A stretch of 45,264 bases of DNA from Candidatus Poribacteria bacterium (GTDB taxonomy: Bacteria; Abyssobacteria; SURF-5). Below, in pieces: positions 4,272 through 39,723 of this stretch. Where the stretch lies: the NCBI GenBank assembly GCA_016215705.1, contig JACRIR010000077.1, positions 1-45,264 on the forward strand. The letters are read 5' to 3'. Position numbers and translations under genes: made by a program. How positions within the stretch are numbered: the stretch's first letter is position 1; each line of letters starts with the position of its first letter. Below the pieces are notes generated by a model. The model was given only the letters and a program-made list of their open reading frames with translations, was not told where the DNA came from and made no database searches.

Positions 4272-4850
4272 GGTTGCTCTCCCGCGTGTGTGTGTTTGCA
4301 TGCGCAAAGGGGAACATCTGTATCCGAATATGAGTAAAGATGCAAAGTTCGTGCCATTTGGGGTAAATGAATTTGATTGATTCTACGGCAGGAGGCCTGA
4401 AAGAGCGTAGGGTGCTTTTGAAGCGCAGCCAGATTCATAACCTATTGTGTGGTAATATGTTCCAGAATGCATCTTCTATGAGGGCCGGCACGCCTTGGCG
4501 TTGCAGGAACCCGGAGGCATGCGATGCCGGAAAGCGGGGCACATTCAGATTTGAACTTTGATTGTTCCTGAATGGCCGGTTGTGTTCGCGCGCCGCCAAG
4601 AATAATCTTGACACCAATAAGCCATAAATGGTAGAAATGCACCCGAGAAGCAGGCGAAAGGTCAAGGACGAAAGGGGAAAAGCCAAGAGAAGGGATTGCT
4701 TTGATCGGCTTGCAATGACCATATTGGGTTCGCTCTTTCTTTCACAATTAACCACGCCCGAGGCGTGATCATGCGCTCGCAAGAAACAGACATTGGAGCA
4801 TTTGCGACAAAAGGCAAGAAGTGACTCTTACAAAGGCGGAAGGATATGAT
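4272..4850. other. Intergenic region with diverged repeats and a possible promoter
   Basis: No convincing gene; the open frames here lack ribosome sites and recognisable protein content. It holds a diverged copy of the purine-rich GGCGAAAGG repeat (about 4655-4690). A perfect 6-bp hairpin CACGCC-CGA-GGCGTG lies at 4753-4767, and its surrounding sequence resembles 21195-21230. The two flanking genes are divergent, so promoters for both should lie here. Confidence 0.6.
4608..4637 (+). promoter_or_regulatory. Sigma70-like promoter upstream of the cobalamin adenosyltransferase
   Basis: A perfect -35 TTGACA at 4608-4613 is followed after 18 nt by TAGAAA at 4632-4637 (4 of 6 matches to TATAAT). 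The gene starts at 4851, so the leader would be about 200 nt and would include the purine repeat and the small hairpin. I saw no cobalamin riboswitch there. Prediction by eye. Confidence 0.4.
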
Positions 4851-5399
4851 ATGAAGTCGTTCAACAAGAAAGGTGACGGGGGGATGACGAGTCTGCTATT
4901 CGGGCACCGCGTTCCGAAGCACTCCCCGCGAACGGAGGCGTATGGGGTGATAGACGAGGCCAATTCGGCTCTCGGCCTGGCCCGCGCGCTTGTTTCCAGC
5001 CAGGAACTCAAGCAGACTATCCTCACCATACAAGAAGAACTCTTCATAGTAGGCTCCGAATTAGCGACATTGCCGGATGAGGTCTCGCGGCTGAAAACGG
5101 TTATCACTGAGTCGCACACGCTTCGTCTCGAGGGACTGATAGACGAATATCAGAAGCTTGTTGATATGCCGAGGGCTTTTGTCGCGCCGGGAGGCAGTCC
5201 GGGCGCAGGCGCGCTCGATCTCGCCCGGGCGATAATCAGGCGAGCGGAGCGGCGCATCGCAAAGCTTTTTCACGAAAAGGAGATGAGGAGTCCCGAGATT
5301 CTGAGTTACTGCAACCGCTTGGCCGACCTGTTGTTCACGGTTGCGCGCTTTGAAGAGAAGACCGGAGAAAAGGGAAGGAAGACGAAAGGGAGAGAATAA
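4851..5399 (+). CDS. pduO: Cob(I)alamin adenosyltransferase, PduO type
   Basis: Transfers the adenosyl group of ATP to cob(I)alamin to make adenosylcobalamin in the cytoplasm; 182 aa. Motifs: KKGDGGMTSLLFGHRVPK near the N terminus (family TxxGDxGxTxLxxGxRVxK), then TEAYGVIDEANSALGLARA, RRAERRI and SYCNRLADLLFTVAR near the end. The ATG at 4851 is chosen because GGCGGAAGGA precedes it by about 6 nt; the GTG at 4821 adds residues not seen in the family. The last 15 residues (EEKTGEKGRKTKGRE) are encoded by purine-rich repeat sequence, so the tail is probably not functional enzyme. The SDR gene follows 10 nt downstream, probably in one transcript. No B12-dependent enzyme is encoded in the window. 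Confidence 0.9.
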   Translation: MKSFNKKGDGGMTSLLFGHRVPKHSPRTEAYGVIDEANSALGLARALVSSQELKQTILTIQEELFIVGSELATLPDEVSRLKTVITESHTLRLEGLIDEYQKLVDMPRAFVAPGGSPGAGALDLARAIIRRAERRIAKLFHEKEMRSPEILSYCNRLADLLFTVARFEEKTGEKGRKTKGRE

Positions 5400-5404
5400 G
5401 GAGG
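5355..5404 (+). repeat. Purine-rich repeat overlapping the 3' end of pduO
   Basis: Sequence such as GGAGAAAAGGGAAGGAAGACG and CGAAAGGGAGAGAA is a diverged member of the GGGGAAAGGCGAAAGG repeat family seen at 573-720, 6180-6225, 10275-10305 and 21097-21150. Here it encodes the C-terminal tail of the adenosyltransferase and also supplies the AAGGAGG ribosome site of the next gene. Confidence 0.55.
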
Positions 5405-5409
5405 AACCC

Positions 5410-6180
5410 ATGGATTTGCAATTGAAGGGCAAAGTGGCTGTGGTAACCGGAGGCGGTCGCGGCATTGGGCTGGCGATGGCATTGGGACTGGCGGAAGAAG
5501 GCGCACACGTAGCCGTTGCCGAAATCGATGAAGAGAGCGCCGAGAAAGCGGTTGCGGAAATCATGAAGCGAGGCATCAAGTCTGTTGCGGTAAGAACCGA
5601 TGTTACGCAGCCGGCAAGCGTCAAGGCAATGGTGGAGCGTGTCGAGGCCGAGCTTGGGGGGATTCAGATACTGGTCAACAATGCCGCCAGGCTGCCTGGT
5701 TTCCTGACGTTTGTCGAGGAGAAGAACAGTGGTGGGTCTGCCGAGCTCTGGGCCAATATTGTGGACGTATGCTACCATGGCGTGATCAATTGCACTGCCG
5801 CCGTCATCGAAGGCATGGTCGAGCGCAAATACGGAAAGATAATCAATATGGCCTCCGACGCCGGCAAAGTGGGCGAGCCCCGGCAGGCCGTTTATGCGGG
5901 CGCGAAAGGCGCAATCATAGCATTCACAAAATCAATCGCGAAGGAAGCGGGCAGATATGGCGTCAATGTCAACGCTATCTGCCCCAGCATGACCAAGACA
6001 GAAGCTGTCCGCCAGATGCTCTCTGCGGATTTCGAGGCAAAAGTCGTGAAGGCATATCCGATGCGGCGTCTGGGCGAGCCGCAAGACATTGCAAACCTTG
6101 CCGTGTTCCTGGCATCGGACTGCGCAGGCTGGATCACGGGCCAGGCTATAAGCGTAAACGGCGGATATGCCACAGCTTGA
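5410..6180 (+). CDS. SDR-family NAD(P)-dependent oxidoreductase
   Basis: Classical short-chain dehydrogenase, 256 aa, cytoplasmic. TGGGRGIG at 13-20 is the cofactor glycine motif, NNA is at 90-92, the catalytic Ser is S149 in INMASDAG, and YAGAK gives Tyr162 and Lys166. ITGQAISVNGGYA near the C terminus is typical of the FabG-like group. The start at 5410 has GGAGG 5 nt upstream. It lies between the adenosyltransferase and two glycosidases. A role as a sugar (arabinose or xylose) dehydrogenase would fit the glycosidase context, but the substrate cannot be read from the sequence. Confidence 0.92.
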   Translation: MDLQLKGKVAVVTGGGRGIGLAMALGLAEEGAHVAVAEIDEESAEKAVAEIMKRGIKSVAVRTDVTQPASVKAMVERVEAELGGIQILVNNAARLPGFLTFVEEKNSGGSAELWANIVDVCYHGVINCTAAVIEGMVERKYGKIINMASDAGKVGEPRQAVYAGAKGAIIAFTKSIAKEAGRYGVNVNAICPSMTKTEAVRQMLSADFEAKVVKAYPMRRLGEPQDIANLAVFLASDCAGWITGQAISVNGGYATA

Positions 6181-24006: not shown

Positions 24007-24804
24007 TTATTTCGATAGTCTCACGGGCCCGTACGGCGTCTGAATAGAACCCGAGGCGGCTATCTCCGGTTTTCCGGTGACGCCGCTCATAAGCAATTTA
24101 ATCAAACCATTCGAGGCTGAGACCTCGCCCGAAAGATTGAATTGTTGTGTCTGACCCGCGCGCACGGGACCGGGCGATGATGCGCTCAGGTCGCCGATCC
24201 GGACATCCCCGAGGTCGAGGGTGTAACGCAGGCTTCCAATGCCGAGCGGGAACACATTCGGATTCTTGATCTCCGAATCGACGATAACAGTCGCTTTGCT
24301 GAGCGAGACGTCCGCAAGCCGAACTTTTAGCGCCGTCAAGAGAGGCGGTTGGAGAATCGGAACCGATCCCGAGTGCGAAACGGGGACTTCAAAGGATTGC
24401 CCGAGGGCAGCCAATACAAATGCGCCATGTAGTGTATAGGAGACTTCGGAAGCATTACCGAGACTCTTATATGTGCGCCATAGATCGTGATAGGACAAAC
24501 GCACGGGGAAACTGACAGTGCCCACTCCGCGCGCCGGTAATTCGGCGGCCGCGGCCATCTCAGAACTCACAAAATCGGAGCCCTGAATCTCAATGCCATA
24601 TCGTACCCGCGGACTCGGCAGGACCACAGGAAGCGGATTGCGGATGTCGACGTCAAAAGCCATATTGACGCCGTGGAAATCGATTGCCGTAACTCGCGGA
24701 CGAACAGCCTGCACCGTGGGCCGCAACGTCACCGGCAAAGTCGAACAGCCAAACATCATAGCGCTCACCGCAAGCGCGGTCATGAACGTCCGCATAGCTC
24801 GCAT
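24007..24804 (-). CDS. LEA type 2 (WHy-domain) lipoprotein
   Basis: Probable lipoprotein of 265 aa: the signal sequence MRAMRTFMTALAVSAMMFGC has a lipobox (MFGC, Cys20). The mature part contains two LEA_2/WHy-like beta domains, about 38-140 and 150-255, seen from the repeated pattern of DFHGVNMAFDVDIRNPLPV and KATVIVDSEIKNPNVFPL with later VRAGQTQQFNLSGEV. In other bacteria such proteins are linked to desiccation or envelope stress, but the function here is not established. GGAGAG lies about 5 nt before the start at 24804. It is divergent from clpB, itself a stress gene, across about 320 nt. Confidence 0.85.
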   Translation of the reverse strand: MRAMRTFMTALAVSAMMFGCSTLPVTLRPTVQAVRPRVTAIDFHGVNMAFDVDIRNPLPVVLPSPRVRYGIEIQGSDFVSSEMAAAAELPARGVGTVSFPVRLSYHDLWRTYKSLGNASEVSYTLHGAFVLAALGQSFEVPVSHSGSVPILQPPLLTALKVRLADVSLSKATVIVDSEIKNPNVFPLGIGSLRYTLDLGDVRIGDLSASSPGPVRAGQTQQFNLSGEVSASNGLIKLLMSGVTGKPEIAASGSIQTPYGPVRLSK

Positions 24805-27735: not shown

Positions 27736-28446
27736 TTACCGCTGCGAATGGAAGACAAACTTAGACCTGCCCATGATAATCTCATCGCCATCGACAAGGA
27801 ATGCCGATTCGATGCGTGTGCCGTTAACCCGGGTTGGTGAGAAGACCGCGAGGTTGGTGATCTGGAAGCCTTTCTCAAGACGGCTGAGAATCGCATGACG
27901 GCGTGACGCAAAGAAGCCTTGAATTCTCACGTCGCAGTTCTCTGCTTTCCCAAAAACGACATCGCTTTTGTCGAGCGGAATCAGACCCTTCGGGTCCGGC
28001 ACACCCTTGATGCGCAGATGTGCTTTTCCGGTCGCTGAAACCTTCTTCTGGATTTTCTGCATCTTCTCGGGCTCGACAAACATGGTGCCGCGCTCCGGCA
28101 TGTCCATGTCGGGCAACGCGCCTGCGGAGGACGTGTGAACGGCCGAGCCCTTTTTGGAACTGCTCTCGAAAACGAGAATGTGCTTGCCGATGCCTATCTC
28201 ATCGCCGAAGTTAAGCGCGGCGGGTTGCTCGACGCGCTGGCCGTTGACAAAAGTGCCATTGTTACTGTCAAGGTCGTTAATAGTGAAGGAGTCTTCCTTT
28301 TTCTCGACTATGGCGTGATGACGCGATACTGCCAGGTTGTCAATCATAACGTCGCAGTCTTCCGCCCGGCCGATCAGCATTTTCTCTTTGTCAATATCAT
28401 AGGTTTGCAGCACATCTCGCCCGAAAACAAGCTTCAGCACCGCCAT
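27736..28446 (-). CDS. Twin FHA-domain protein
   Basis: Cytoplasmic phosphopeptide-binding protein, 236 aa, with two FHA domains. The first, about 22-95, shows IGRAEDCDVMI, SRHHA and NNGTFVNG. The second, about 160-232, shows VFGKAENCDVRI, SRRHA and TRVNG; the usual NGT is changed to SPTRVNG. Between them the linker contains RGTMFVEPEKM with Thr121, which could itself be phosphorylated and bound by one of the domains (inference). GAGGAGAG precedes the start at 28446. No Ser/Thr kinase is encoded nearby. The FHA-GAF kinase at 1645 is a possible functional relative but is 25 kb away. Confidence 0.9.
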   Translation of the reverse strand: MAVLKLVFGRDVLQTYDIDKEKMLIGRAEDCDVMIDNLAVSRHHAIVEKKEDSFTINDLDSNNGTFVNGQRVEQPAALNFGDEIGIGKHILVFESSSKKGSAVHTSSAGALPDMDMPERGTMFVEPEKMQKIQKKVSATGKAHLRIKGVPDPKGLIPLDKSDVVFGKAENCDVRIQGFFASRRHAILSRLEKGFQITNLAVFSPTRVNGTRIESAFLVDGDEIIMGRSKFVFHSQR

Positions 28447-28706: not shown

Positions 28707-29858
28707 ATGAGAATAGCCAAGATCGAGGTTTTCACAGCCAAGCCGCCGCGCGCATGGATGAGCCCCGTCATGACGCGCATCCATACCGACGAAGGCATTA
28801 CCGGCATAGGAGAAGTGGCGCTCGCCTACGGCCTTGGCGGCGAGGCCGGAGCGCGGATGATCAAGGAAATAGCGGCATTCCTGCTGCTTGGCGAGGACCC
28901 TTTCCGGATCGAGTATATCTGGGACAGGATGTTTCGCGACACCTTCTGGGGACAAGGGGGCGGGCCGGTTGTTTACGGCGCAATGAGCGCTATCGATGAG
29001 GCCCTATATGACATAAAGGGCAAGGCCCTGAAAGTGCCCGCCTACGAACTGCTCGGCGGCAAGTGCCGCGACCGTATCCGCCTCTATGCGAACGGCTGGT
29101 ACGTCGGCGCAGCGGAACCTCACGAATATGCAGAGGCGGCGCGCAAAGTCGTCAGCGACGGGTACACCGCTATGAAATTTGACCCCTTCGCAATCAGGCC
29201 CGACGGCAGTTGGGGTTACCCCGGCCGGGTCATAGAGAAGGACATGGCCCAGTGCGTGTATAACCGGGTCAAGGCCGTTCGCGAAGCGGTCGGGCCCGAT
29301 GTTGATATCCTGATCGAATGTCACGGAAACCTGGGAACAACGTCTGCCATTCAGGTTGGGAAACGTCTCGAGGAACTTGCGCCCTTCTTCTACGAAGAGC
29401 CGGTCGATGCGCTAAATGTCGATTGCATGAAGAAAGTCGCCGAGAACGTCAACGTTCCCCTCGCGGCGGGCGAACGGCTATACAGCCGGTACCATTTTCG
29501 GAAGTACATCGAGGATCAGGCGCTCGATTTCTTGCAGCCGGATATCGGCTTGGCGGGCGGATTGACCGAAACCAAGAAGATCGCCACATATGCCGAGACG
29601 TACAACCTTGTCGTCGCGCCACACAATTGTGCGGGACCTGTTGCAACAGCCGCAGCGGTGCAACTCGACGCATGCATGACCAATTTCCTGATCCAGGAAT
29701 GGTTCCCATACTTCAGCGACGAACACTATGCGTTAGTCACGAGCCCACTCGAGAAAAAGGCCGTCAACGGCTATTTCGAGATTCCGAATACACCCGGCCT
29801 CGGCGTCGATCTCAGTCCTCAGGCTGTCAAGGAACTCGATTGCATTGTAGTTGAATGA
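28707..29858 (+). CDS. Mandelate racemase/muconate lactonizing enzyme-family dehydratase (enolase superfamily)
   Basis: Mg2+-dependent enolase-superfamily enzyme, 383 aa, probably a sugar-acid dehydratase of the galactonate or mannonate type. Likely metal ligands are Glu204 in LIECHGNLG, Glu230 in FFYEEPV and Glu256 in AAGERLYSR. His206 and His306 (in VAPHNCAGP) are candidate acid/base residues, with Asp279 in QPDIG as the partner. The KxK pair of racemases is replaced by MKFDP. Such dehydratases act in the breakdown of aldonic acids, which would fit the pentose glycosidases of this genome, but these genes are about 18 kb apart. AGAGGAAAA lies before the ATG. It converges with the flagellin-like gene, 34 nt apart. 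The substrate is not determined. Confidence 0.92.
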   Translation: MRIAKIEVFTAKPPRAWMSPVMTRIHTDEGITGIGEVALAYGLGGEAGARMIKEIAAFLLLGEDPFRIEYIWDRMFRDTFWGQGGGPVVYGAMSAIDEALYDIKGKALKVPAYELLGGKCRDRIRLYANGWYVGAAEPHEYAEAARKVVSDGYTAMKFDPFAIRPDGSWGYPGRVIEKDMAQCVYNRVKAVREAVGPDVDILIECHGNLGTTSAIQVGKRLEELAPFFYEEPVDALNVDCMKKVAENVNVPLAAGERLYSRYHFRKYIEDQALDFLQPDIGLAGGLTETKKIATYAETYNLVVAPHNCAGPVATAAAVQLDACMTNFLIQEWFPYFSDEHYALVTSPLEKKAVNGYFEIPNTPGLGVDLSPQAVKELDCIVVE

Positions 29859-29892
29859 GGTTTGAAAGCGACTTTTGATTGGGCCGTTGCGC

Positions 29893-30747
29893 TCATCCGA
29901 CTACGTCAAAAAGAACGCCTGTCCGGTCGCCGGCAATACTTTGCGCAATATCGCTCGCGCGCAGGCCGATTTCAGAGAGGACAATATCGTTCACAGGGCC
30001 CGAAAAACCGGCCCCGGCCGCAGACGAAACGCCCACTGGATTCCTCGCAAGGACTTCGATATTGCGAGAAGCCGCGTCGAGCGTCTCGGTCTCGAAAGTC
30101 TCAAGGTCAGTTCGGGTTTGCGCGATGTCTCTTACTGCCGCGTCCACTACCAGAAGCGAGTCGTCAGCCCCTTGAGCCGTGGTGACATCTATCTCCGCCA
30201 GGCTATTAAAACCGCTAACGTTCTCCACGCCTCGACCGAGATGGTCGGGGGAAAGGTCGCGGAGGGGTATCAGCACGACGCCGGTAGTCCCAAATCCGAA
30301 AGGATTTGTCCGGAAGGACCCGCTAAAGAGCGGACGACTCGCAAATCTGGCCGCTATGATAATCAGGTTGATTGCATCAATGTCTTTCTCGATTCGCTCC
30401 TGAATCTCCAGGAGTTCCGCATTCCCGATTGGTTGTCCGTCATTGCCCGCCACAAGAGTCAGCCGACGAATCTCGGCCAGTCGGCCGTCGATCTGTACGA
30501 GCGCCGCGTCCGCAGTCCGTACCAGCGCCACCGTCCGCGTCGTCGCCGTCGCCAATGCCACTACGTCGCCTATGCGGACTCGGGAAATGTCGCTGATGCC
30601 GAAGTCGCCCGCGACTCCGCCCGCAGGATTCGTGGAACCTATTGTGAAAGCGGACCCGAGCACCCGCGAATCCGTCCGCACCGCGTCCAGTGCAAAATCG
30701 GTTCGCCGGATACCCATAGGCGCCGAAAAATCGATCCTCAATCCCAT
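29893..30747 (-). CDS. Flagellin-like (FliC/FlgL) orphan protein
   Basis: Protein of 284 aa that resembles a diverged flagellin without a variable central domain. The N-terminal part carries the flagellin pattern of a long helix (RTVALVRTADAALVQIDGRL, then AEIRRLTLVAGND) followed by LLEIQERIEKDIDAINLI and SRPLFSG, matching the usual region that ends in N.KLL.G. The C-terminal part has the matching pattern (SLLVVDAAVRDIAQTRTDLE, then ETLDAASRNIEVLA) and a helical end. The extreme N-terminal residues (MGLRIDFSAPMGIRR) do not match normal flagellins. No other flagellar gene is in the window. It may be a functional filament or adhesin-like protein, or a relic; the frame is intact. GAGGGG lies about 9 nt before the start. 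Confidence 0.65.
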   Translation of the reverse strand: MGLRIDFSAPMGIRRTDFALDAVRTDSRVLGSAFTIGSTNPAGGVAGDFGISDISRVRIGDVVALATATTRTVALVRTADAALVQIDGRLAEIRRLTLVAGNDGQPIGNAELLEIQERIEKDIDAINLIIIAARFASRPLFSGSFRTNPFGFGTTGVVLIPLRDLSPDHLGRGVENVSGFNSLAEIDVTTAQGADDSLLVVDAAVRDIAQTRTDLETFETETLDAASRNIEVLARNPVGVSSAAGAGFSGPVNDIVLSEIGLRASDIAQSIAGDRTGVLFDVVG

Positions 30748-30943
30748 CCTTCAACACCCCTCAATCTCCTTCGAGGTTTCTTATTAAAGTATGTATCTGA
30801 AGTCTCGGAGTGGAAAACGGGAGGAAAGCCCCATCGTCTTGTTAGTGACTAGGTCCTTGGTTTTTCTTTGCGGGCTTTACGCCTTTGAGGTTAATGTCTG
30901 ATGCGAAGAGAGGACTCTGTGGAAATGCCAATAAGGAAGGTTA

Positions 30944-31903
30944 TTACTTCCGCTTGTGAGTCGCGTAGAAACCGACCCACTCGCCGTTTTTGAGGGTTTT
31001 ATCGAGGCGCCAGCCCAGCCGCGCCATTTCGCGGCGCACGGGGATGACTGACTCGCGCGTCAGTCCCGATGCGATAAGAGCCTTTCCCGCGAGCAGGCGT
31101 GTGATATCCGGTAGCAAAGGGAGCATTTCATGTCCTAACATGTTACACACGCCCAGATCGAATCGCCCTCTTATGGAAGGTCCAAACCGGTTGCACATTA
31201 TTCTCACCTTGGTAAGGACCCGATTAAATTTGCAGTTTTCTGTCGCGTTTTCTGTCGCGACTTCGTCCATTTCGACGGCCACCACGCTTCGCGCGCCGAG
31301 CTTTGCTGCTCCGATGGAAAGAATCGCGCTCCCCGCGCCAATGTCAATCACGCGAGAGCCCTGTCTCATATGAAGCTCCAGCAGTTTAAGACAAATCTGG
31401 GTTGTCGCATGGCTGCCGGTTCCGAACGCCATTCGCGGATATATGTAGATAACTATTTGGCCAGGTTTCTTCGGCGTTTCTATCCACGAGGGACAAATCA
31501 GAACCCTTCTTGTCACCCTCACGGGTTTCCAGTTTCGCCGCCATTCTTCGGCCCAGTCCTCTTCCGGAACTTCCTTGATATCGCCGACTTTCAGCTTTCG
31601 CCCGCCCGCGGCTGAGCCGCCCGCCGCCGATATCAGTTCCGCAATCAGTTCCATGTGTGCTTGCAGGTCGGCGGGATCAATCGCGTCTTCAAAATAGGCA
31701 TCAACTTGTTCCCGCTCCCCACCCTCGTCCTTTGATTCAATTCCGCAGCAGCGCAGCGACTGGACAGCGTCAACGAATGCGTCCATCGGAGACAGACCCG
31801 TTCTCTCAGGGTCCGTTCCTCGTTTCTCTGCGTCACCCTTGGCTACCGAGACAGTGACTTTATGCCAGATTTTTTCAGGTCTCTTGCTTTCAGGCTTTTT
31901 CAT
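30944..31903 (-). CDS. prmA: Ribosomal protein L11 methyltransferase-like protein
   Basis: SAM-dependent methyltransferase of the PrmA family, 319 aa, modifying lysines of ribosomal protein L11 or a related target in the cytoplasm. EDWAEEWRRNWKPVRV ends the N-terminal substrate-binding domain, PRMAFGTGSHATTQICLKLLE is the strongest family signature, and the SAM site is VIDIGAGSAILSIGAAKLGA. The usual N-[IL]-L motif is NMLG here. The N-terminal domain is longer and more polar than in E. coli PrmA (293 aa), with an insertion around SKDEGGEREQVDAYF. The start at 31903 (MKKPESKRPEK) is preferred over one 72 nt upstream because the upstream residues do not look like a family N terminus. Its promoter is not clear. 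Confidence 0.88.
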   Translation of the reverse strand: MKKPESKRPEKIWHKVTVSVAKGDAEKRGTDPERTGLSPMDAFVDAVQSLRCCGIESKDEGGEREQVDAYFEDAIDPADLQAHMELIAELISAAGGSAAGGRKLKVGDIKEVPEEDWAEEWRRNWKPVRVTRRVLICPSWIETPKKPGQIVIYIYPRMAFGTGSHATTQICLKLLELHMRQGSRVIDIGAGSAILSIGAAKLGARSVVAVEMDEVATENATENCKFNRVLTKVRIMCNRFGPSIRGRFDLGVCNMLGHEMLPLLPDITRLLAGKALIASGLTRESVIPVRREMARLGWRLDKTLKNGEWVGFYATHKRK

Positions 31904-32213
31904 AGCCGCCAGTATATCACATTGTGGGTCTATCCTTCCCTCTGTCGCAGCGTGATGCAATTGGTCTCGCGCCATGCACGACTAGCGACATTCATGCTCC
32001 CGAATTCGCAAAACCGTATTTGCCTGTTTCAAGAAACATGATTATAATATGGAAACTTTCAGCTTGGGCATCGGGAGCGTACGGAAGTAGTTGCGGGCGT
32101 TTGGCTAAGCAGTCTGCGTGAATTCTGAGCCCGTAGTCGGGGATACTACGCTGCTTGGCGCCCCCGGTCAAGAAACAGATGCGGGTTTCTTATGAGGTGG
32201 GGGAGGGCCTCCA
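31904..32213. other. Divergent gap and leader region before the ACIII operon
   Basis: About 310 nt without a gene. It holds the promoter listed at 32019-32048 and, downstream, an imperfect hairpin: AAGCA/TGCTT (32107-32111 with 32152-32156) and GCGT/ACGC (32116-32119 with 32148-32151), enclosing GTAGT/ACTAC (32133-32149 region). It could be a leader structure for the respiratory operon. Confidence 0.45.
32019..32048 (+). promoter_or_regulatory. Sigma70-like promoter of the ACIII operon
   Basis: A perfect -10 TATAAT at 32043-32048 with TTGCCT (4 of 6) at 32019-32024 and an 18-nt spacer, about 165 nt upstream of the first gene. No other promoter-like sequence of this quality is seen before the operon. 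Confidence 0.5.
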
Positions 32214-33518
32214 TTGGATTTTCCGGTCGTTGAAGTTCCTTTGATCGGTGGCCGTATGCTTATCGCACTTGTCGGAATCATCCATGTGCTGATAAGTCAT
32301 GGCTGCGCGGTGGGTGGCTCATTTTTTCTGGTCCTGCTCGAATATAAGTCGATTCGAGAACGCAACGAGCGACTCAACCTGGTGGCATATCGGCTGACTC
32401 GCTGGTTTTTTATCCTGACTACTTCCGTCGGCGCGATGACGGGTGTGGGCATCTGGTTTACCACTAACATGTTCTCGCCGGTGGGAATCGGATCGCTCCT
32501 GCGGGTGTTCTTTTGGGCGTGGTTCGTCGAATGGCTCGTATTCATAACCGAAATAGTTCTCGTGGCGGTTTACTACCTCTCGTGGCGGCGCATGTCGCCG
32601 CAGAAACATCTGAGAGTAGGAATCGCTTACATTCTGACCTCTTTACAAACCATGATCATAATCGTGGGAATTCTGGGGTTCCAGCTTACGTCCGGGAAAT
32701 GGATGTCCACTCGTTCGTTCTGGGACGGCTTTTTCAACCCCACATATGTTCCTCAGTTGTTCAGCAGAATCGCGTTGGCCGGGATTCTGGCCTGTGCATT
32801 CTGCCTTCTCATTTACGCCTTCCTGCGCGACCTGCGCGATGTCCGGACGCAGTTCCTGCGGTTCTCGGGCGCATACCTTCTGTTCGTGAGTCCGCTCTAT
32901 CTGCTCGCCACGTTCGCGTACTATCAGGTCTTGCCGGAGCGAGCGCAAGCTTTTATATCCGTCGCGCTTGTTACGCTCCAACTGACACAATACGCTCAAT
33001 GGAGCAAAATATTCTTCGTCGCTGTTGTGGGGGTTATGCTCTTGACGGGCGCCGTCTTATTTCTCAAGCAAAGGACATACGGCGTTCTTTCAATCTTGCC
33101 GATACTTGTGCTCACCGTCGCGGTTGCGCAATTCGAGAGGGTCCGCGAGTTCGCTCGCAAGCCCTACGTGGTCGACGGCTATTTATACAGCAACGGTTTT
33201 CGTAAGGTGGAACTACCCTTTATTTCGGACGTAGGGGCATCGCGATACGCAACATGGGCGTGGCGAGGGCTTGACCAGAAGAAAGGCGATGCCGCCTTGG
33301 GACACATGCTGTTCCGGCTGGAATGCTCGACTTGCCACACTTATCGCGGCATAAACGGGATTTTCAGGAAGAAGATACTTGCACCCGGCGAGGAAGCAGC
33401 GTTAAGATTTCTCAATACCTACGAGTTCTCGCATCCGTATATGCCCCCATTCGCCGGCACACAGAGTGAGAAAGAGGCCCTGGCGTATTTCTTGGGCGAA
33501 GGCGCAACGAAAAAATGA
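32214..33518 (+). CDS. CydA-like membrane protein with C-terminal cytochrome c domain, subunit 1
   Basis: Integral membrane protein of 434 aa with about nine hydrophobic helices followed by a periplasmic monohaem c domain (CSTCH at 371-375, distal ligand probably Met in YMPPF). The N-terminal half resembles cytochrome bd subunit I: LIALVGIIHVLISHGCAVGG with His24/His29 in the first helix, and SVGAMTGVGIWFTTN in the place of the CydA GVATGLTMEFQFGTNW region. At the position of the CydA b558 histidine it reads QLFSRIALAG, so that His is missing. The start is TTG at 32214, supported by GGGGAGGG 5-6 nt upstream and an in-frame stop at 32193; no earlier ATG exists. It overlaps the next gene by 4 nt. 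Assignment to the CydA superfamily is by eye. Confidence 0.8.
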   Translation: MDFPVVEVPLIGGRMLIALVGIIHVLISHGCAVGGSFFLVLLEYKSIRERNERLNLVAYRLTRWFFILTTSVGAMTGVGIWFTTNMFSPVGIGSLLRVFFWAWFVEWLVFITEIVLVAVYYLSWRRMSPQKHLRVGIAYILTSLQTMIIIVGILGFQLTSGKWMSTRSFWDGFFNPTYVPQLFSRIALAGILACAFCLLIYAFLRDLRDVRTQFLRFSGAYLLFVSPLYLLATFAYYQVLPERAQAFISVALVTLQLTQYAQWSKIFFVAVVGVMLLTGAVLFLKQRTYGVLSILPILVLTVAVAQFERVREFARKPYVVDGYLYSNGFRKVELPFISDVGASRYATWAWRGLDQKKGDAALGHMLFRLECSTCHTYRGINGIFRKKILAPGEEAALRFLNTYEFSHPYMPPFAGTQSEKEALAYFLGEGATKK

Positions 33519-34786
33519 CGAACATCCCCATCGACATACCGTTGTCATTGCCGGCGCCCGATGGCGTGCTCAAAGCGCTGCTCGTGATAACTTTCATCGT
33601 TCACATTCTGTTTGTCGGACTCATGGTCGGCGGCGCATATTGGAGCGTCATTTTCAAGCTGCTCGGCAAAGAAGACCCCTTCTACGAGCGCCTGGCAAGA
33701 GAAATACTCGATACGGTGACAATCAACAAAAGCCTTGCCGTTGTGCTTGGCGTGGCGCCGCTCCTGCTCATAGGACTGACATACACCGGTTACTGGTACA
33801 CTGCCAACATGATGACCGTCCCGGCGTTTCTGTCAATTATCTGGCTGGTAATCTTCGCGTTCCTATTTTTGTATGCCTACAAATACACATGGGACAGCCT
33901 TGGCGACCGAGCGCCGTTCCTCCATCTGTCCTTCGGATTGTCCGCCTGCGCAATCTTCGCTTTTGTGCCATTGATCTTTTTGGCCAATATCAACCTGATG
34001 CTCCTGCCATTCCGGTGGGATGCCACCAAAGGATTCATTCAGGCGCTGCTCTTGCCAAATGTCTTGTTCAGATACATGCACTTTTTCGTGGCCGTGTTCG
34101 CCATAATCGGATTCTTTGCTGCAATATATTTTTGGTGCCGAGGGCGGAAATCCGACGACCTGTTCTACATGCGGTCGCAAAAACTCGGCCTGAAATGGGC
34201 GTTGGGCGGCACATTGCTGCAAAGCATTTTTGGAACACTGAATTTCATATCCCTGCCGCAAGGCGCATACTCGAGAACTTTACTGATACATATTGCCGCC
34301 GCTCTGGCGCTGGCGGCGGTGGCCTGCATCGCGCTTGTGCGCGCGCTTCTGACGACGTCCGGCAAACCCATTGTCGCCGCCGTCGCGCTGCTCGGAGTAG
34401 TCGCTCTGCTAATGAGCTTCGTGCGGCATACCGTCAGGGAGAATCTCTTGCGAGAACCCCGAATGGTGGCCAACCAGCGCACGCTGGAATATCAAACATC
34501 GTTGGCGACGTTTCTGAAGACATACACGCCGGAAAGCGGGAAACTGCTCAGTGGCGAGGACCTGTTCAAGCGCTACTGCACGAGTTGTCACGCGCGCGAC
34601 CGGCTGCTCCTTGGGCCGTCAACGCAATACATGGTTCAGAAATACAAGGGCAAGAAGGAAGACATGGCGGCGTTTGTCTTGAACCCCAAGAAAGTCAATC
34701 CCGATCTTCCGAGCATGCCCAAACCTCCGATAGGTCAGTATGAAATCGAGGAGATTGTCGAATATATTCTGGGCGGGAGTCGCTAG
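33515..34786 (+). CDS. CydA-like membrane protein with C-terminal cytochrome c domain, subunit 2
   Basis: Distant paralogue of the preceding protein, 423 aa, same architecture: about nine membrane helices, then a monohaem c domain (CTSCH at 355-359; candidate Met ligand in LPSMPKPP). His30 in FIVHILFVGLMVGG matches the first-helix histidine of CydA. Unlike subunit 1 it keeps a histidine, His189 in RYMHFFVAVFAI, at the place of E. coli CydA His186. The ATGA overlap with subunit 1 and the 3-nt gap to actA show tight co-translation. Together the pair may form a haem-bearing membrane module that docks on ACIII, either passing electrons to an external acceptor through the c haems or reducing oxygen. 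The function is inferred only. Confidence 0.8.
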   Translation: MTNIPIDIPLSLPAPDGVLKALLVITFIVHILFVGLMVGGAYWSVIFKLLGKEDPFYERLAREILDTVTINKSLAVVLGVAPLLLIGLTYTGYWYTANMMTVPAFLSIIWLVIFAFLFLYAYKYTWDSLGDRAPFLHLSFGLSACAIFAFVPLIFLANINLMLLPFRWDATKGFIQALLLPNVLFRYMHFFVAVFAIIGFFAAIYFWCRGRKSDDLFYMRSQKLGLKWALGGTLLQSIFGTLNFISLPQGAYSRTLLIHIAAALALAAVACIALVRALLTTSGKPIVAAVALLGVVALLMSFVRHTVRENLLREPRMVANQRTLEYQTSLATFLKTYTPESGKLLSGEDLFKRYCTSCHARDRLLLGPSTQYMVQKYKGKKEDMAAFVLNPKKVNPDLPSMPKPPIGQYEIEEIVEYILGGSR

Positions 34787-34789
34787 ACC

Positions 34790-35299
34790 ATGAAGACAAT
34801 CGCGATCTACGTTGTGATTGTCGCATGGTTCGCCGCAGTTGTGGTGGCAGTGGCCGCGTTCGGGCTCATGCAGGAGCCATCAATGAGGCCAAAGCAGCCG
34901 ATCGAGTATCCTCACCATACCCATGTGCAAGACGTCGGCATGCAATGCCTCGATTGTCATCGCTATGCTGAAAAGTCGATATATGCCACCATCCCGGGAA
35001 CGGACATTTGCATGGGCTGTCATGAGTCTGTGGCCACCGATAAGCCGGAAATCATAAAACTGACGGAAGCATACCGTTCCGGCAAGCCGGTCGGGTGGGT
35101 GCGTGTGTATCAGGTGAAACCGCATGTCTACTTCTCGCACAAGCGGCATGTTCTGAGCGGCATGAAGTGCCAGGAATGTCACGGGCCGGTCGAGCAGATG
35201 ACCACCGTCCAGCGTGTCACCGACCTCGGCATGGGGTGGTGCGTGAAATGTCATAGAACCCGGGGAGCGCCGAGAGAGTGCGACACTTGTCATAAATGA
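34790..35299 (+). CDS. actA: ACIII pentahaem cytochrome c subunit
   Basis: Membrane-anchored periplasmic multihaem cytochrome, 169 aa. One N-terminal hydrophobic helix (AIYVVIVAWFAAVVVAVAAF) serves as anchor. Five CxxCH haem sites follow: CLDCH, CMGCH, CQECH, CVKCH and CDTCH, with extra histidines (YPHHTHV, FSHKRHV) for bis-His ligation. Five haems, the anchor and the position before a Mo/FeS fusion gene match ActA of alternative complex III. Starts 3 nt after the preceding stop. A REP-like hairpin follows it. Confidence 0.93.
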   Translation: MKTIAIYVVIVAWFAAVVVAVAAFGLMQEPSMRPKQPIEYPHHTHVQDVGMQCLDCHRYAEKSIYATIPGTDICMGCHESVATDKPEIIKLTEAYRSGKPVGWVRVYQVKPHVYFSHKRHVLSGMKCQECHGPVEQMTTVQRVTDLGMGWCVKCHRTRGAPRECDTCHK

Positions 35300-35336
35300 G
35301 TCCAAGGTCGCAATAGAGGGTGTCTGCGGGGCGTCT

Positions 35337-35385
35337 GGCCTTAATTCGGGGACACCATGCCGCATGGTGTCCCCGAATTAAGGCC
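35337..35385. repeat. REP-like perfect hairpin inside the ACIII operon
   Basis: Arms 35337-35359 and 35363-35385 are exact reverse complements (23 bp) with a CCG loop. The core is identical to those at 15982-16030 and 43780-43826. It fills much of the 109-nt gap between actA and actB, the only long gap in the first four genes of the operon, and could protect or attenuate the transcript there. Confidence 0.95.
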
Positions 35386-35408
35386 CCAAAGCCGAAGATC
35401 AAAAGAGA

Positions 35409-38381
35409 ATGTGGCGTCTTACACGGAAAAGTAGGAGCGTGATACATCTGAGAAGAGGTTTCAGCAGAATCAGCCGGAGACGATTCCTCGCAACAAGCGG
35501 GCTTGCAGGCGCGGCCGCAATGGCGCCCGTCGGGCGCGCGCGCGCGGGCGTGATACTCAAACACCTCATTCCGGAAGAAGACATAATTCCCGGCGTATCA
35601 TACTGGTTGAATTCAACATGCAGTGAATGTCCGGCAGGCTGTGGCGTCAAAGTGCGCCTCCGGGAGGGCAACGCGGTCAAGATCGAGGGCAACGAGAATC
35701 ACCCCGTGAACCATGGCGGGCTCTGCGCGCGCGGACAATCTGCTCTGCAGGCGCTATACAGCCCGGCGCGGATTCAAACGCCTCTGAGACGAAATGCAGG
35801 CGGGCGAATGGACCCGACAGGTTGGAAGGACGCCTTCGACCTCATAGCCCGCTCCACGTCTGCGAGCGGCTCTTCGGAAAAAGTGGTCGTTGTAACGAGC
35901 CAGGTTACAGGCGCTATGCGCGCAATGCTCGAGCGGTTCGCCGCCGGTTCGCCGAAGTTCAACTTCTTCGTTTGCGAGCCATTGGATTACGCGCCGGTCG
36001 CCGCCGCCAATAAGCTTTGTTTCGGGCTCGAGGCAGTTCCGACTTATTCCTTCGATAAAGCGCGCACGATAGTCTCGTTCGGCGCCGACTTTCTCGAAAC
36101 GTGGTTGTCGCCCGTCAGCAACGCTCACGGGTACGCCATATCCCGGAATCCGACCAATGGCGCTATGAGCAGGATGATTCAGTTCGAATCTTATATGTCT
36201 CTCACCGGCGCAAACGCCGACGAACGATATTGCTGTCCGCCGGGAGTTGAAACATTGGTCGCGCTTTCAATCGCATCACGGATGCTATCCGGAACGGCAT
36301 TGCCGGCAAGCGAGTGGGAAACATGGCGGAGCGCGCTGCGGCCGTTCACAATCGAGCGCGCCGCGAAGGCGGCCGGTGTCCCGCCGCAAGTATTAGAGCA
36401 GGTTGCCGACAGGCTGCGTTCTCAAACGCCGAGCTTGGCGCTAGCCGGGGGACCGAGTTCACACTCCACTTGTGCGACGGCGTTGCAGGTGGCCGTCAAC
36501 CTCATCAATTTCAGCGCGGGCGGGTATGGCAAGACGCTCACTTTCGACCGAGCCGAGCATGCGCCCGTTGGCACATACAGCCAATTGCTCGATTTGGTCG
36601 AGGATATGGAAGCCGGACGCGTCTCGACGCTCATCGTTCACGAATGTAATCCCCTGTTCGCATTCCCCGAACCGGAGCGGTTGAAGACGGCAATGAAGCG
36701 CGCGCCCCTCAAGATTCAGTTGGCTTCGGTCAGGGATAGCGCAAGCGAATCGTATGATATTGTTCTGCCTGCGCTTCATTGGCTCGAGCGATGGGACAAG
36801 GTTGAGTCTCGCAGCGGAGTCTATAGCTTGCAACAGCCCGTCATCAAGCCGTGGTGTGATGCCAGGCATGCGGGCCAGGCGCTGAGCGATATTATGGCCG
36901 TTTTGCCGGATCACACGACCAGGATGCCGGAAGACTACCAACAATTCTTGCGGGAGCGGTGGGAAAACATTCCCGGGGATAGGTCGGCTTCCGAGGATTC
37001 CGATGATTTCTGGAAACAAGTTCTTACGGACGGTGGGTATTGGGCGCCGCCGGTCTCACGGAAAGTAACCCTGAACGCGCGCGCCGCCGAGGCGATAAGC
37101 GATTTCGCGCCGATGGTTTCACTATCCGGCGAGCATGTGCTCCTGCCGGTCACGACAGTTCGCTATGGTGATGGACGCCAGACCGGCAGACCCTGGCTCT
37201 ACGAAATGCCCGACCCGATCACCTTGATTGTGTGGGACACTCCTCTCCTCATATCACTCGGCACATCAAAGAAATGGAACTGCCAATCGGGTGATATCGT
37301 CAGGCTCAAGTGCGATAAGGGTTTTCTGGAGGCGCCGGTTTACGTTCAGTCCGGCACACACGACGCCGTTGTGGCAGTTTCTCTCGGCGCCCCCAGTGAC
37401 AAGTACGCCTCATTTTATTTCGAGCCGGCGAATCATCCCCTGCACCGTCTGAGAGGTGACATCGACAAGTTCTCCGGCGCCCTCTCATGGGTCGGCACGC
37501 CACTTACGTTTGAAGGAGTCACAGGTCACAACCGGCTTGCTCGCCTGCAAGGTTCCGGCCGCCAGGACGGCCGCGGCATCGCACAAACCATCGCGACCAC
37601 CGAGGTCGGCAAGCTGGGCAAGGCAAGCCGACGGCCCGCAACACTTGAGTTCGACCTGTATCCGAAACACGAACACCCGGTGCACGACTGGGGCATGGTG
37701 ATCGACCTTTCGGTCTGCATCGGATGCGGCGCATGCGCGGTCGCGTGCTACGCGGAAAACAACGTCCACGTCGTCGGAAAGAATGAATGCCTGCGCGGCC
37801 GCGAGCAGTCGTGGCTTCGAATAGAGCGATTTATTGATAAGGGGCGCACTGTTTTCCTGCCGGCGTTGTGCCAGCAGTGCGAGCACGCTCCGTGCGAGAC
37901 CGTCTGCCCCGTTTATGCCGCCGTGCACAGCAGCGAAGGGCTTGATGTGCAGGTCTACAACCGCTGCGTCGGCACACGCTATTGCGCGAACAATTGTCCG
38001 TATAAGGTGCGCAGGTTCAATTGGTTCACATACAAGGTCGATCCGCCGCTGGAGAAGCAGTTTAATCCTGATGTTTTTGTCCGCACTCGCGGAATCATGG
38101 AAAAATGCACATTCTGTATTCAGCGAATTCGAGAGCACAAGGAAATCGCCAAAGACGAGAAACGCCGGCTGCGCGACGGCGAAGTAGTGCCCGCCTGCGC
38201 GCAAAGCTGTCCGACCGGCGCCATCCGTTTCGGCGACTTGAAGGACCCGGCCAGCCAGGTATCAAAGCAAATGGATGATCCGCGAGGCTATGCCATACTC
38301 GCGGAACTGAACACTCAGCCGTCGATTCTCTATCTCAAGCGCGTTTACCATGCCGACGGCACGGTTACGGAGACATTGTGA
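35409..38381 (+). CDS. actB: ACIII molybdopterin-like/iron-sulfur fusion subunit
   Basis: Large periplasmic subunit of alternative complex III, 990 aa. A Tat signal SRRRFLATSGLAGAA lies at 22-36. The first part is a molybdopterin oxidoreductase-like domain with C71-x2-C74-x3-C78-x27-C106 (TCSECPAGC, then GGLCARG), followed by the usual long domain (for example HECNPLFAFPEPERLKTAMK) to about 730. The C-terminal ferredoxin part, from about 760, has four cysteine motifs: CIGCGACAVAC, CQQCEHAPCETVCP, CVGTRYCANNCPYK and CTFCIQRI with CAQSCPTGAI. ActB of characterised ACIII has this two-part fusion and is not thought to bind an active molybdenum cofactor (established knowledge). The ribosome site AAGAGA before the ATG is weak. 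actC follows 7 nt downstream. Confidence 0.94.
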   Translation: MWRLTRKSRSVIHLRRGFSRISRRRFLATSGLAGAAAMAPVGRARAGVILKHLIPEEDIIPGVSYWLNSTCSECPAGCGVKVRLREGNAVKIEGNENHPVNHGGLCARGQSALQALYSPARIQTPLRRNAGGRMDPTGWKDAFDLIARSTSASGSSEKVVVVTSQVTGAMRAMLERFAAGSPKFNFFVCEPLDYAPVAAANKLCFGLEAVPTYSFDKARTIVSFGADFLETWLSPVSNAHGYAISRNPTNGAMSRMIQFESYMSLTGANADERYCCPPGVETLVALSIASRMLSGTALPASEWETWRSALRPFTIERAAKAAGVPPQVLEQVADRLRSQTPSLALAGGPSSHSTCATALQVAVNLINFSAGGYGKTLTFDRAEHAPVGTYSQLLDLVEDMEAGRVSTLIVHECNPLFAFPEPERLKTAMKRAPLKIQLASVRDSASESYDIVLPALHWLERWDKVESRSGVYSLQQPVIKPWCDARHAGQALSDIMAVLPDHTTRMPEDYQQFLRERWENIPGDRSASEDSDDFWKQVLTDGGYWAPPVSRKVTLNARAAEAISDFAPMVSLSGEHVLLPVTTVRYGDGRQTGRPWLYEMPDPITLIVWDTPLLISLGTSKKWNCQSGDIVRLKCDKGFLEAPVYVQSGTHDAVVAVSLGAPSDKYASFYFEPANHPLHRLRGDIDKFSGALSWVGTPLTFEGVTGHNRLARLQGSGRQDGRGIAQTIATTEVGKLGKASRRPATLEFDLYPKHEHPVHDWGMVIDLSVCIGCGACAVACYAENNVHVVGKNECLRGREQSWLRIERFIDKGRTVFLPALCQQCEHAPCETVCPVYAAVHSSEGLDVQVYNRCVGTRYCANNCPYKVRRFNWFTYKVDPPLEKQFNPDVFVRTRGIMEKCTFCIQRIREHKEIAKDEKRRLRDGEVVPACAQSCPTGAIRFGDLKDPASQVSKQMDDPRGYAILAELNTQPSILYLKRVYHADGTVTETL

Positions 38382-38388
38382 AACTGCC

Positions 38389-39723
38389 ATGACCAACGAG
38401 CACACTCGAGACAGATTTGAGCAGATCGACCGGCTTGTGCTTCGGTCATTACTGCGACCCGGGAAGCTTTATATCGCTTTCTCCGCGGTTGTGCTGGTGT
38501 GCCTCGGTCTCGGTGTTTTCGCCTACTCGCGGATAATCACTGTCGCGATCGGTGTGACGGGGAAAAACAATCCGGTGCATTGGGGCGCGCTCATAACCAA
38601 TTTTGTCTTTTGGGTCGGTCTGGCCCACTCAGGCACACTCATATCAGCTATACTCTACCTTTTCAGGGCAAGGTGGCGGACGAGCATCAACCGCATTGCC
38701 GAGGCGATGACCGTGGTCGCCATCATGACAGCCGGACTTTTCCCCCTTGTTCACATGGGGCGCGTATGGCGCGCCTACTATCTTGTGCCATATCCGAATT
38801 CCCGTGAACTGTGGCCGAACTTCCGCAGTCCTCTGCTGTGGGACGTGTTTGCTATCACCACATATATGCTCGTAAGCATTATGTTCTTTTACGTCGGATT
38901 GATACCCGACCTTGCAACGGTTCGCGACCGCTCCAATGGCCTTGTAAAGAAGGTGTACTCGCTTCTTTCTCTGGGCTGGCGCGGGAGCAACCGTCAGTGG
39001 CATCATTACGAGACGACCTACCTGCTGCTGGCCGCGCTCGCGACGCCGCTTGTAATCTCTGTACACAGTGTGGTCAGTTGGGACTTTGCGGTCTCTTTGG
39101 TTCCCGGATGGCACAGCACAATTTTCGCGCCCTATTTTGTGGCAGGCGCCATATTCTCCGGATGCGCCATGATTATCGTGATACTGATGCCGATGCGCAA
39201 GTTCCTGGGGCTCGAGAATCTCATCGAGCCCTTGCATTTCAGCATGCTCTGCAAGATGCTTATTTTCATGAGCCTGATAATCACCTATTCATATTTCTCG
39301 GAGTTCTTTGTCGCGTGGTACAGCGGCAACGTCTTCGAGCAACACAGCTTCTACAACCGCGCGTTCGGGTTCTACAGCCCGTTGTTCTGGGTTATGGTCC
39401 TATGCAATTCGATTCTGCCAATCACGCTCTTCAGCGCGCGGCTGCGCTCAAATATGATTTATGTGTACGTTGTGGCGGTTTGCGTCGTGATCGGCATGTG
39501 GCTTGAAAGGTTTGTGATTATTGTCAGCAGTCTGTCTCAGGATTATGACCCTTATGCATGGGGACAATACTGGCCCTCAATTGTCGAGTGGGGCATCACG
39601 TTGGGCAGTTTCGGGATGTTCTTCTTCATGTTCGGAATGCTTACCAGGATATTCCCCGTTGTGGCGATGGGCGAGGTCAAATCGCAACTCCGCCCCGGGC
39701 CGGGAGATGCCGGTCATGCGTGA
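38389..39723 (+). CDS. actC: ACIII NrfD-like quinol-binding membrane subunit
   Basis: Integral membrane protein, 444 aa, about ten helices, NrfD/PsrC family; the quinol-oxidising subunit of ACIII. HWGALITNFVFWVGLAHSGT, FPLVHMGRVWRAYYLVPYP, and HSVVSWDFAVSLVPGWHSTIFAPYFVAGA are typical ActC segments. The ATG at 38389 is chosen over one at 38350 inside actB because the family sequence begins after it. It overlaps actD by 8 nt. Confidence 0.93.
   Translation: MTNEHTRDRFEQIDRLVLRSLLRPGKLYIAFSAVVLVCLGLGVFAYSRIITVAIGVTGKNNPVHWGALITNFVFWVGLAHSGTLISAILYLFRARWRTSINRIAEAMTVVAIMTAGLFPLVHMGRVWRAYYLVPYPNSRELWPNFRSPLLWDVFAITTYMLVSIMFFYVGLIPDLATVRDRSNGLVKKVYSLLSLGWRGSNRQWHHYETTYLLLAALATPLVISVHSVVSWDFAVSLVPGWHSTIFAPYFVAGAIFSGCAMIIVILMPMRKFLGLENLIEPLHFSMLCKMLIFMSLIITYSYFSEFFVAWYSGNVFEQHSFYNRAFGFYSPLFWVMVLCNSILPITLFSARLRSNMIYVYVVAVCVVIGMWLERFVIIVSSLSQDYDPYAWGQYWPSIVEWGITLGSFGMFFFMFGMLTRIFPVVAMGEVKSQLRPGPGDAGHA

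Follow-up and report, generated by a model that had tools for sequence, protein, structure and literature searches.

A strongly diverged short flagellin encoded beside prmA in Candidatus Abyssubacteria, a paralog that may no longer build the filament

Six flagellin-homologous proteins of Vibrio vulnificus share about 53-75% identity, and the homologues FlaE and FlaF of this bacterium are reported to be exported without building a filament (PMC6692518). Campylobacter FlaC, a flagellin-like protein conserved in several species, is reported to be secreted and to have no part in motility (PMC4863622), and Caulobacter FljJ, a regulatory flagellin that shares 49% identity with the others and has FlbT as its partner, is reported to be a divergent paralog unable to form a filament alone (PMC7591256). 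The C-terminal end of flagellin binds FliS, and contacts with FliS, FliW and FlhA have been described on the Bacillus flagellin (PMC6070490).

Here we describe a flagellin-like gene from a 5.47-Mb assembly of Candidatus Abyssubacteria, located on a stretch of 45,264 nucleotides (contig C251) to which we refer as the window. Its product is like the V. vulnificus FlaE and FlaF in being an extra flagellin homologue beside a flagellar system, and like Caulobacter FljJ in being a divergent flagellin paralog; its export, for which the Vibrio proteins provide the analogy, is our proposal. It is, however, far more altered than FlaE or FlaF, and whereas Campylobacter FlaC is described as conserved across several species, no such family came to light for the window form. 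We see about even chances that the protein is a flagellin paralog that is no longer a standard filament subunit and is perhaps still exported.

The gene, its neighbours and the flagellar system of the genome

The gene and the two features directly upstream of it are as follows.

29893..30747, reverse strand: diverged short flagellin (284 aa; profile, BLASTP and structure matches)
30748..30943, reverse strand: gap of 196 bases between PrmA and flagellin genes (no sigma-70-like promoter or terminator-like site found)
30944..31975, reverse strand: PrmA-family methyltransferase, conserved upstream neighbour (PF06325, 6.7e-61; 71% identity to the SURF_17 copy)

The first-pass annotation had claimed an intact 284-aa frame and a flagellin-like product, and both claims hold. 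The frame runs unbroken from ATG to TGA; NCBIfam flagellin models match the product with E values down to 2.8e-10, flagellins of solved structure match it in phmmer with E values down to 9.8e-9, and BLASTP aligns it with a short flagellin on contig C243 of the same genome (37% identity, E 7e-50), so that homology to undoubted flagellins extends from end to end. Every NCBIfam score is under the curated cut-off, as are those of the ordinary short flagellins. The suggested HMM search also fell short of the cut-off in Pfam, where Flagellin_N reached 21.9 bits (cut-off 26.6), starting at profile position 45, and Flagellin_C had no match in the window protein, as against 48.1 bits for the C243 flagellin. 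Judged from its sequence, the protein is a true but strongly altered member of the flagellin superfamily. Open frames overlap the gene on both strands, as might be expected of a chance frame or of an assembly or frameshift artefact, but such an origin is hardly credible given that the end-to-end homology lies in one frame, that the other frames have no significant match and that codon-position GC resembles that of neighbouring genes. A frameshifted ordinary flagellin was rejected on the same lack of matches in the other frames.

SURF_17, which belongs to another genus of the same family and is described in a published account as Candidatus Abyssubacteria and motile (PMC6121073), has PrmA directly before the only short flagellin found there. 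Because the order is the same, we regard PrmA and flagellin as a conserved pair; beyond it, no other neighbour is shared within the SURF_17 stretch compared. The gene had been placed between a dehydratase and PrmA, and of these the PrmA neighbour stands, whereas the "dehydratase" belongs to the MR_MLE/enolase superfamily, is encoded on the strand opposite to the flagellin gene and lies outside the conserved pair. A functional tie to this neighbour was rejected, its SURF_17 counterpart (88% identical) being on another contig. A role for PrmA as a special flagellin methyltransferase was likewise rejected: it matches ribosomal L11 methyltransferase models (177.9 bits, cut-off 183.15), and nothing suggests a flagellin substrate. 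Elsewhere in the window, membrane cytochromes, a cytochrome c7-type protein, a molybdopterin/FeS protein and NrfD are encoded in a row (32214-39723, forward strand), a cluster that we take to resemble the alternative complex III type, and the reverse strand encodes a protein with two FHA-domain matches (27736-28446) and a LEA_2-domain protein (24007-24804, 81.2 bits).

Both ordinary short flagellins, those of C243 and SURF_17, carry a promoter-like site a short way ahead of the start codon (10-11 of 12 positions matching), which ends 41 bases from it in SURF_17 and 45 in C243. In both copies a sigma-54-like spacing with 2 mismatches and a sigma-70-like promoter fit the same place, so that either promoter class is possible. 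Around the window gene (29700-31100) no promoter-like site was found, the lone terminator-like site falls inside the gene, and a scripted search upstream found no clear sigma-28 or sigma-54 pattern. Transcription of the gene from prmA is possible.

The gene had also been called an orphan without flagellar neighbours. A Pfam scan of 10 neighbours in the window found no flagellar protein, but the orphan label is misleading in that the PrmA-flagellin order is kept in a second genus and the genome encodes further flagellins as well as a flagellar system; the proposed check for further flagellar genes turned up FlhA, FlgK, FlgL, FlgI, FliD, FliS, FliW and FlaG. Contig C186 carries a long flagellin with FlaG, FliD and FliS, contig C75 carries FlgL, FlgK, FlgI, a rod/hook-family protein and FliW, and the second short flagellin is on C243. 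Among the 3 genomes of the phylum in the collection (91-98% complete), FlhA and a long flagellin occur in all 3 and a short flagellin was seen in 2. The short flagellins of the phylum seem to be located away from flagellar clusters, and that of C243 adjoins a homologue of AmmeMemoRadiSam system protein B (L028, 9567-11783). The ordinary short flagellins (L010, 1501-2349; L001, 1075-1923) end in RTGM--DLLA, and the short family is itself unusual because this departs from the LAQANAIPQTVLQLLG ending of long flagellins.

Retained and lost segments of the protein

For the tree and the motif counts, 14 of 32 loci supplied 18 flagellin rows, 17 were excluded as long or partial and the remaining one (L034) corresponds to the SURF_17 copy; we also included three long flagellins from Abyssubacteria. 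Structure alignments comprised 18 rows, excluding the third L035 copy and L058. Hallmark columns were those conserved in 75% or more of 21 other flagellins. Of these, the window protein keeps 13/32 in the N arm, 21/52 in D1 and 3/26 in the C arm, compared with 22/32, 35/52 and 14/26 for the C243 flagellin and 25/32, 37/52 and 14/26 for that of SURF_17. The segments below are scored on shared columns, meaning those common to both ordinary short copies, and their limits were chosen after viewing the alignment.

30733..30747, reverse strand: residues 1-5 (MGLRI), flagellin N-terminal start, retained (4/4 columns kept)
30661..30732, reverse strand: residues 6-29, D0 N-terminal helix region, eroded (2/12 columns kept; pLDDT 35-39)
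30592..30660, reverse strand: residues 30-52, former LSSGLRI-N-AADD-AG segment, altered and longer (8/15 columns kept)
30040..30591, reverse strand: residues 53-236, D1 core, retained (63/122 columns kept; helices 48-101, 109-132 and 191-235; pLDDT blocks to 93)
30127..30255, reverse strand: residues 165-207, best-kept block, codons changed (residue and codon comparison with the two ordinary copies)
29980..30039, reverse strand: residues 237-256, former IRD-D C-terminal segment, lost (1/14 columns kept)
29896..29979, reverse strand: residues 257-284, C-terminal end, partly retained relative to the ordinary short copies (12/20 columns kept)

Given the post hoc block limits, this unevenness is suggestive only: D0 had not changed significantly more than D1 (p = 0.066; hallmark columns p = 0.33), and a permutation scan for uneven retention gave 0.11 and 0.26.

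All four residues of the IRD-D motif are identical in 21/21 of the other flagellins and in both ordinary short copies, but in the window protein they read A, A, G and G. The SSGLRI-N-AADD motif, kept elsewhere with scattered changes, is lost as well. In the flagellar filament, it is these segments that link D0 with D1. The protein thus does not present the set of features (SSGLRI-N-AADD, IRD-D and D0 helices) by which a filament-forming flagellin is recognised. The first-pass annotation was right about the unusual extreme N terminus, but its claim that both terminal helical patterns of flagellin are present was not confirmed, Flagellin_N falling below cut-off, Flagellin_C finding no match, and the C arm being altered like the N arm.

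AlphaFold2 models of the window and SURF_17 proteins, built with the same 18 sequences, have a confident D1 hairpin in both, with 10-residue blocks above 90 (maximum 93 for the window protein, 96 for that of SURF_17). Over residues 1-50 the scores are 35-39 for the window protein and 44-63 for the SURF_17 protein, and the C-terminal helix is lower too, although part of this drop is expected because the other alignment rows are closer to the SURF_17 protein. Foldseek with the window model returned 34 matches at E <= 0.001, all flagellins by title; PDB 2zbi, a bacterial cell-surface flagellin in which the fold serves outside the filament, came at rank 37, under ordinary flagellins. Of the D0/D1 fold proposed as a check, the D1 helical hairpin was therefore found, while D0 was modelled with pLDDT below 40 over residues 1-50. 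A hydrophobic-moment comparison of the D0 helices gave no clear difference.

The retention of the terminal residues and of the D1 core, together with helices at 12-36 and 250-283 that are still predicted, albeit with low confidence, would be consistent with a minor structural flagellin that joins the filament, perhaps at one of its ends, compensating changes having restored the core contacts; multiple flagellins per genome are reported for other bacteria. The loss of an IRD-D motif otherwise present in every flagellin compared, the loss of the SSGLRI-N-AADD segment and the low D0 model confidence make such a subunit unlikely.

Duplication, divergence and selection

The window, C243 and SURF_17 short flagellins are of one length class and form one group in the tree (100/100). 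The two ordinary copies are 67% identical to each other, and the window protein shares 37-40% identity with each of them, having lost both motifs and the promoter-like site; the SURF_17 flagellin is thus 67% identical to the C243 copy and 40% to the window copy, though it is the latter that occupies the PrmA locus. The end branch of the window protein (2.12) is about eight times longer than those of the ordinary copies (0.25 and 0.28), a length at which placement in the tree becomes uncertain; branch order inside the trio (support 86/52) is not settled. The simplest history that these sequences suggest would be a duplication in the lineage of the window genome, then fast change of the copy at the PrmA locus. 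Since the genome has flagellar machinery and two more normal flagellins, we probably see here a surplus copy that has either shifted to a different role or is gradually being lost. Scans of genome and viral contigs for short peptide patterns, which distant relatives may escape, found no relative of the altered form, so that a single sequence of the diverged kind was found. A phage-borne origin was rejected, there being no relative among the viral contigs.

Among the other loci, a Candidatus Tanganyikabacteria contig has four short flagellin genes in a row (L035, 2901-6831), the third of them (4842-5708) having clearly diverged further (branch 0.86), and the frame of a Hydrogenedentota flagellin (L037, 5947-6816) is split in two by a stop.

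The main rival reading is that of a duplicate flagellin under relaxed selection, decaying and with no current function, that has not yet acquired a stop. The very long branch, the loss of hallmark motifs in both arms, the missing promoter-like site and a shift in amino-acid make-up (5.6% N+Q versus 13-15% in the ordinary short copies) are all consistent with decay. The frame is intact, however, and indels relative to the ordinary copies are in-frame only. A codon model of three sequences puts omega at 0.12 on the window branch and rejects omega = 1 (2dL = 16.2); because synonymous sites on these branches are saturated, omega values are rough and recent relaxation, or recent loss of function, is still compatible with them. 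Residues 165-207 share 26/43 and 30/43 residues with the two ordinary copies, with the same codon at 5/26 and 8/30 of these, and recent gene conversion was rejected as the origin of this block since its codons have changed. Under simulated neutral drift to 40% identity, indels uncounted, the frame stayed open in 1/200 runs from each ordinary copy. The rejection of omega = 1, the codon-changed conserved block and the rarity of neutral frame survival all argue for past selection on the protein. By this comparison of sequences, selection has shaped it for much of the history of the gene, and may since have relaxed. We consider decay without function fairly unlikely.

A possible role outside the filament

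The first-pass suggestion of a repurposed filament protein is plausible, as motif loss with selection on the rest would fit it, though slow decay of a duplicate would fit as well. For a paralog that has left the standard filament, we propose the following course. A duplication within Candidatus Abyssubacteria would have given a second short flagellin; the C243 copy would have kept the ordinary sequence and its strong promoter-like site, and the copy at the PrmA locus would have changed at about eight times the rate. Its expression would depend on the prmA transcript or on a weak promoter, and the window protein may still be recognised by FliS and FlhA and pass through the flagellar export channel, for which the genome has FlhA, FliS, FliD, FliW, FlgK and FlgL. 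Because its two D0 arms would be unable to lock into the filament core, it would be released outside or modulate the flagellin pool rather than build a filament.

By analogy with studied flagellins, the ends that the protein retains would be the parts on which export and FliS binding of flagellin depend. From these ends, taken with the lost segments between D0 and D1, we therefore favour an exported or cytoplasmic protein outside the filament. More tentatively, it could be an exported D1-centred module kept by selection after both D0-D1 linking motifs had gone, an instance of a repurposing of flagellin that recurs after duplication.

The candidate phylum to which the gene belongs is far from the bacteria with known non-filament flagellins. 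If the gene is decaying, it is an ordinary duplicate; if it is functional, it would add one more independent case of a flagellin in non-motility use and would reveal which parts of flagellin are dispensable once filament building is not required.
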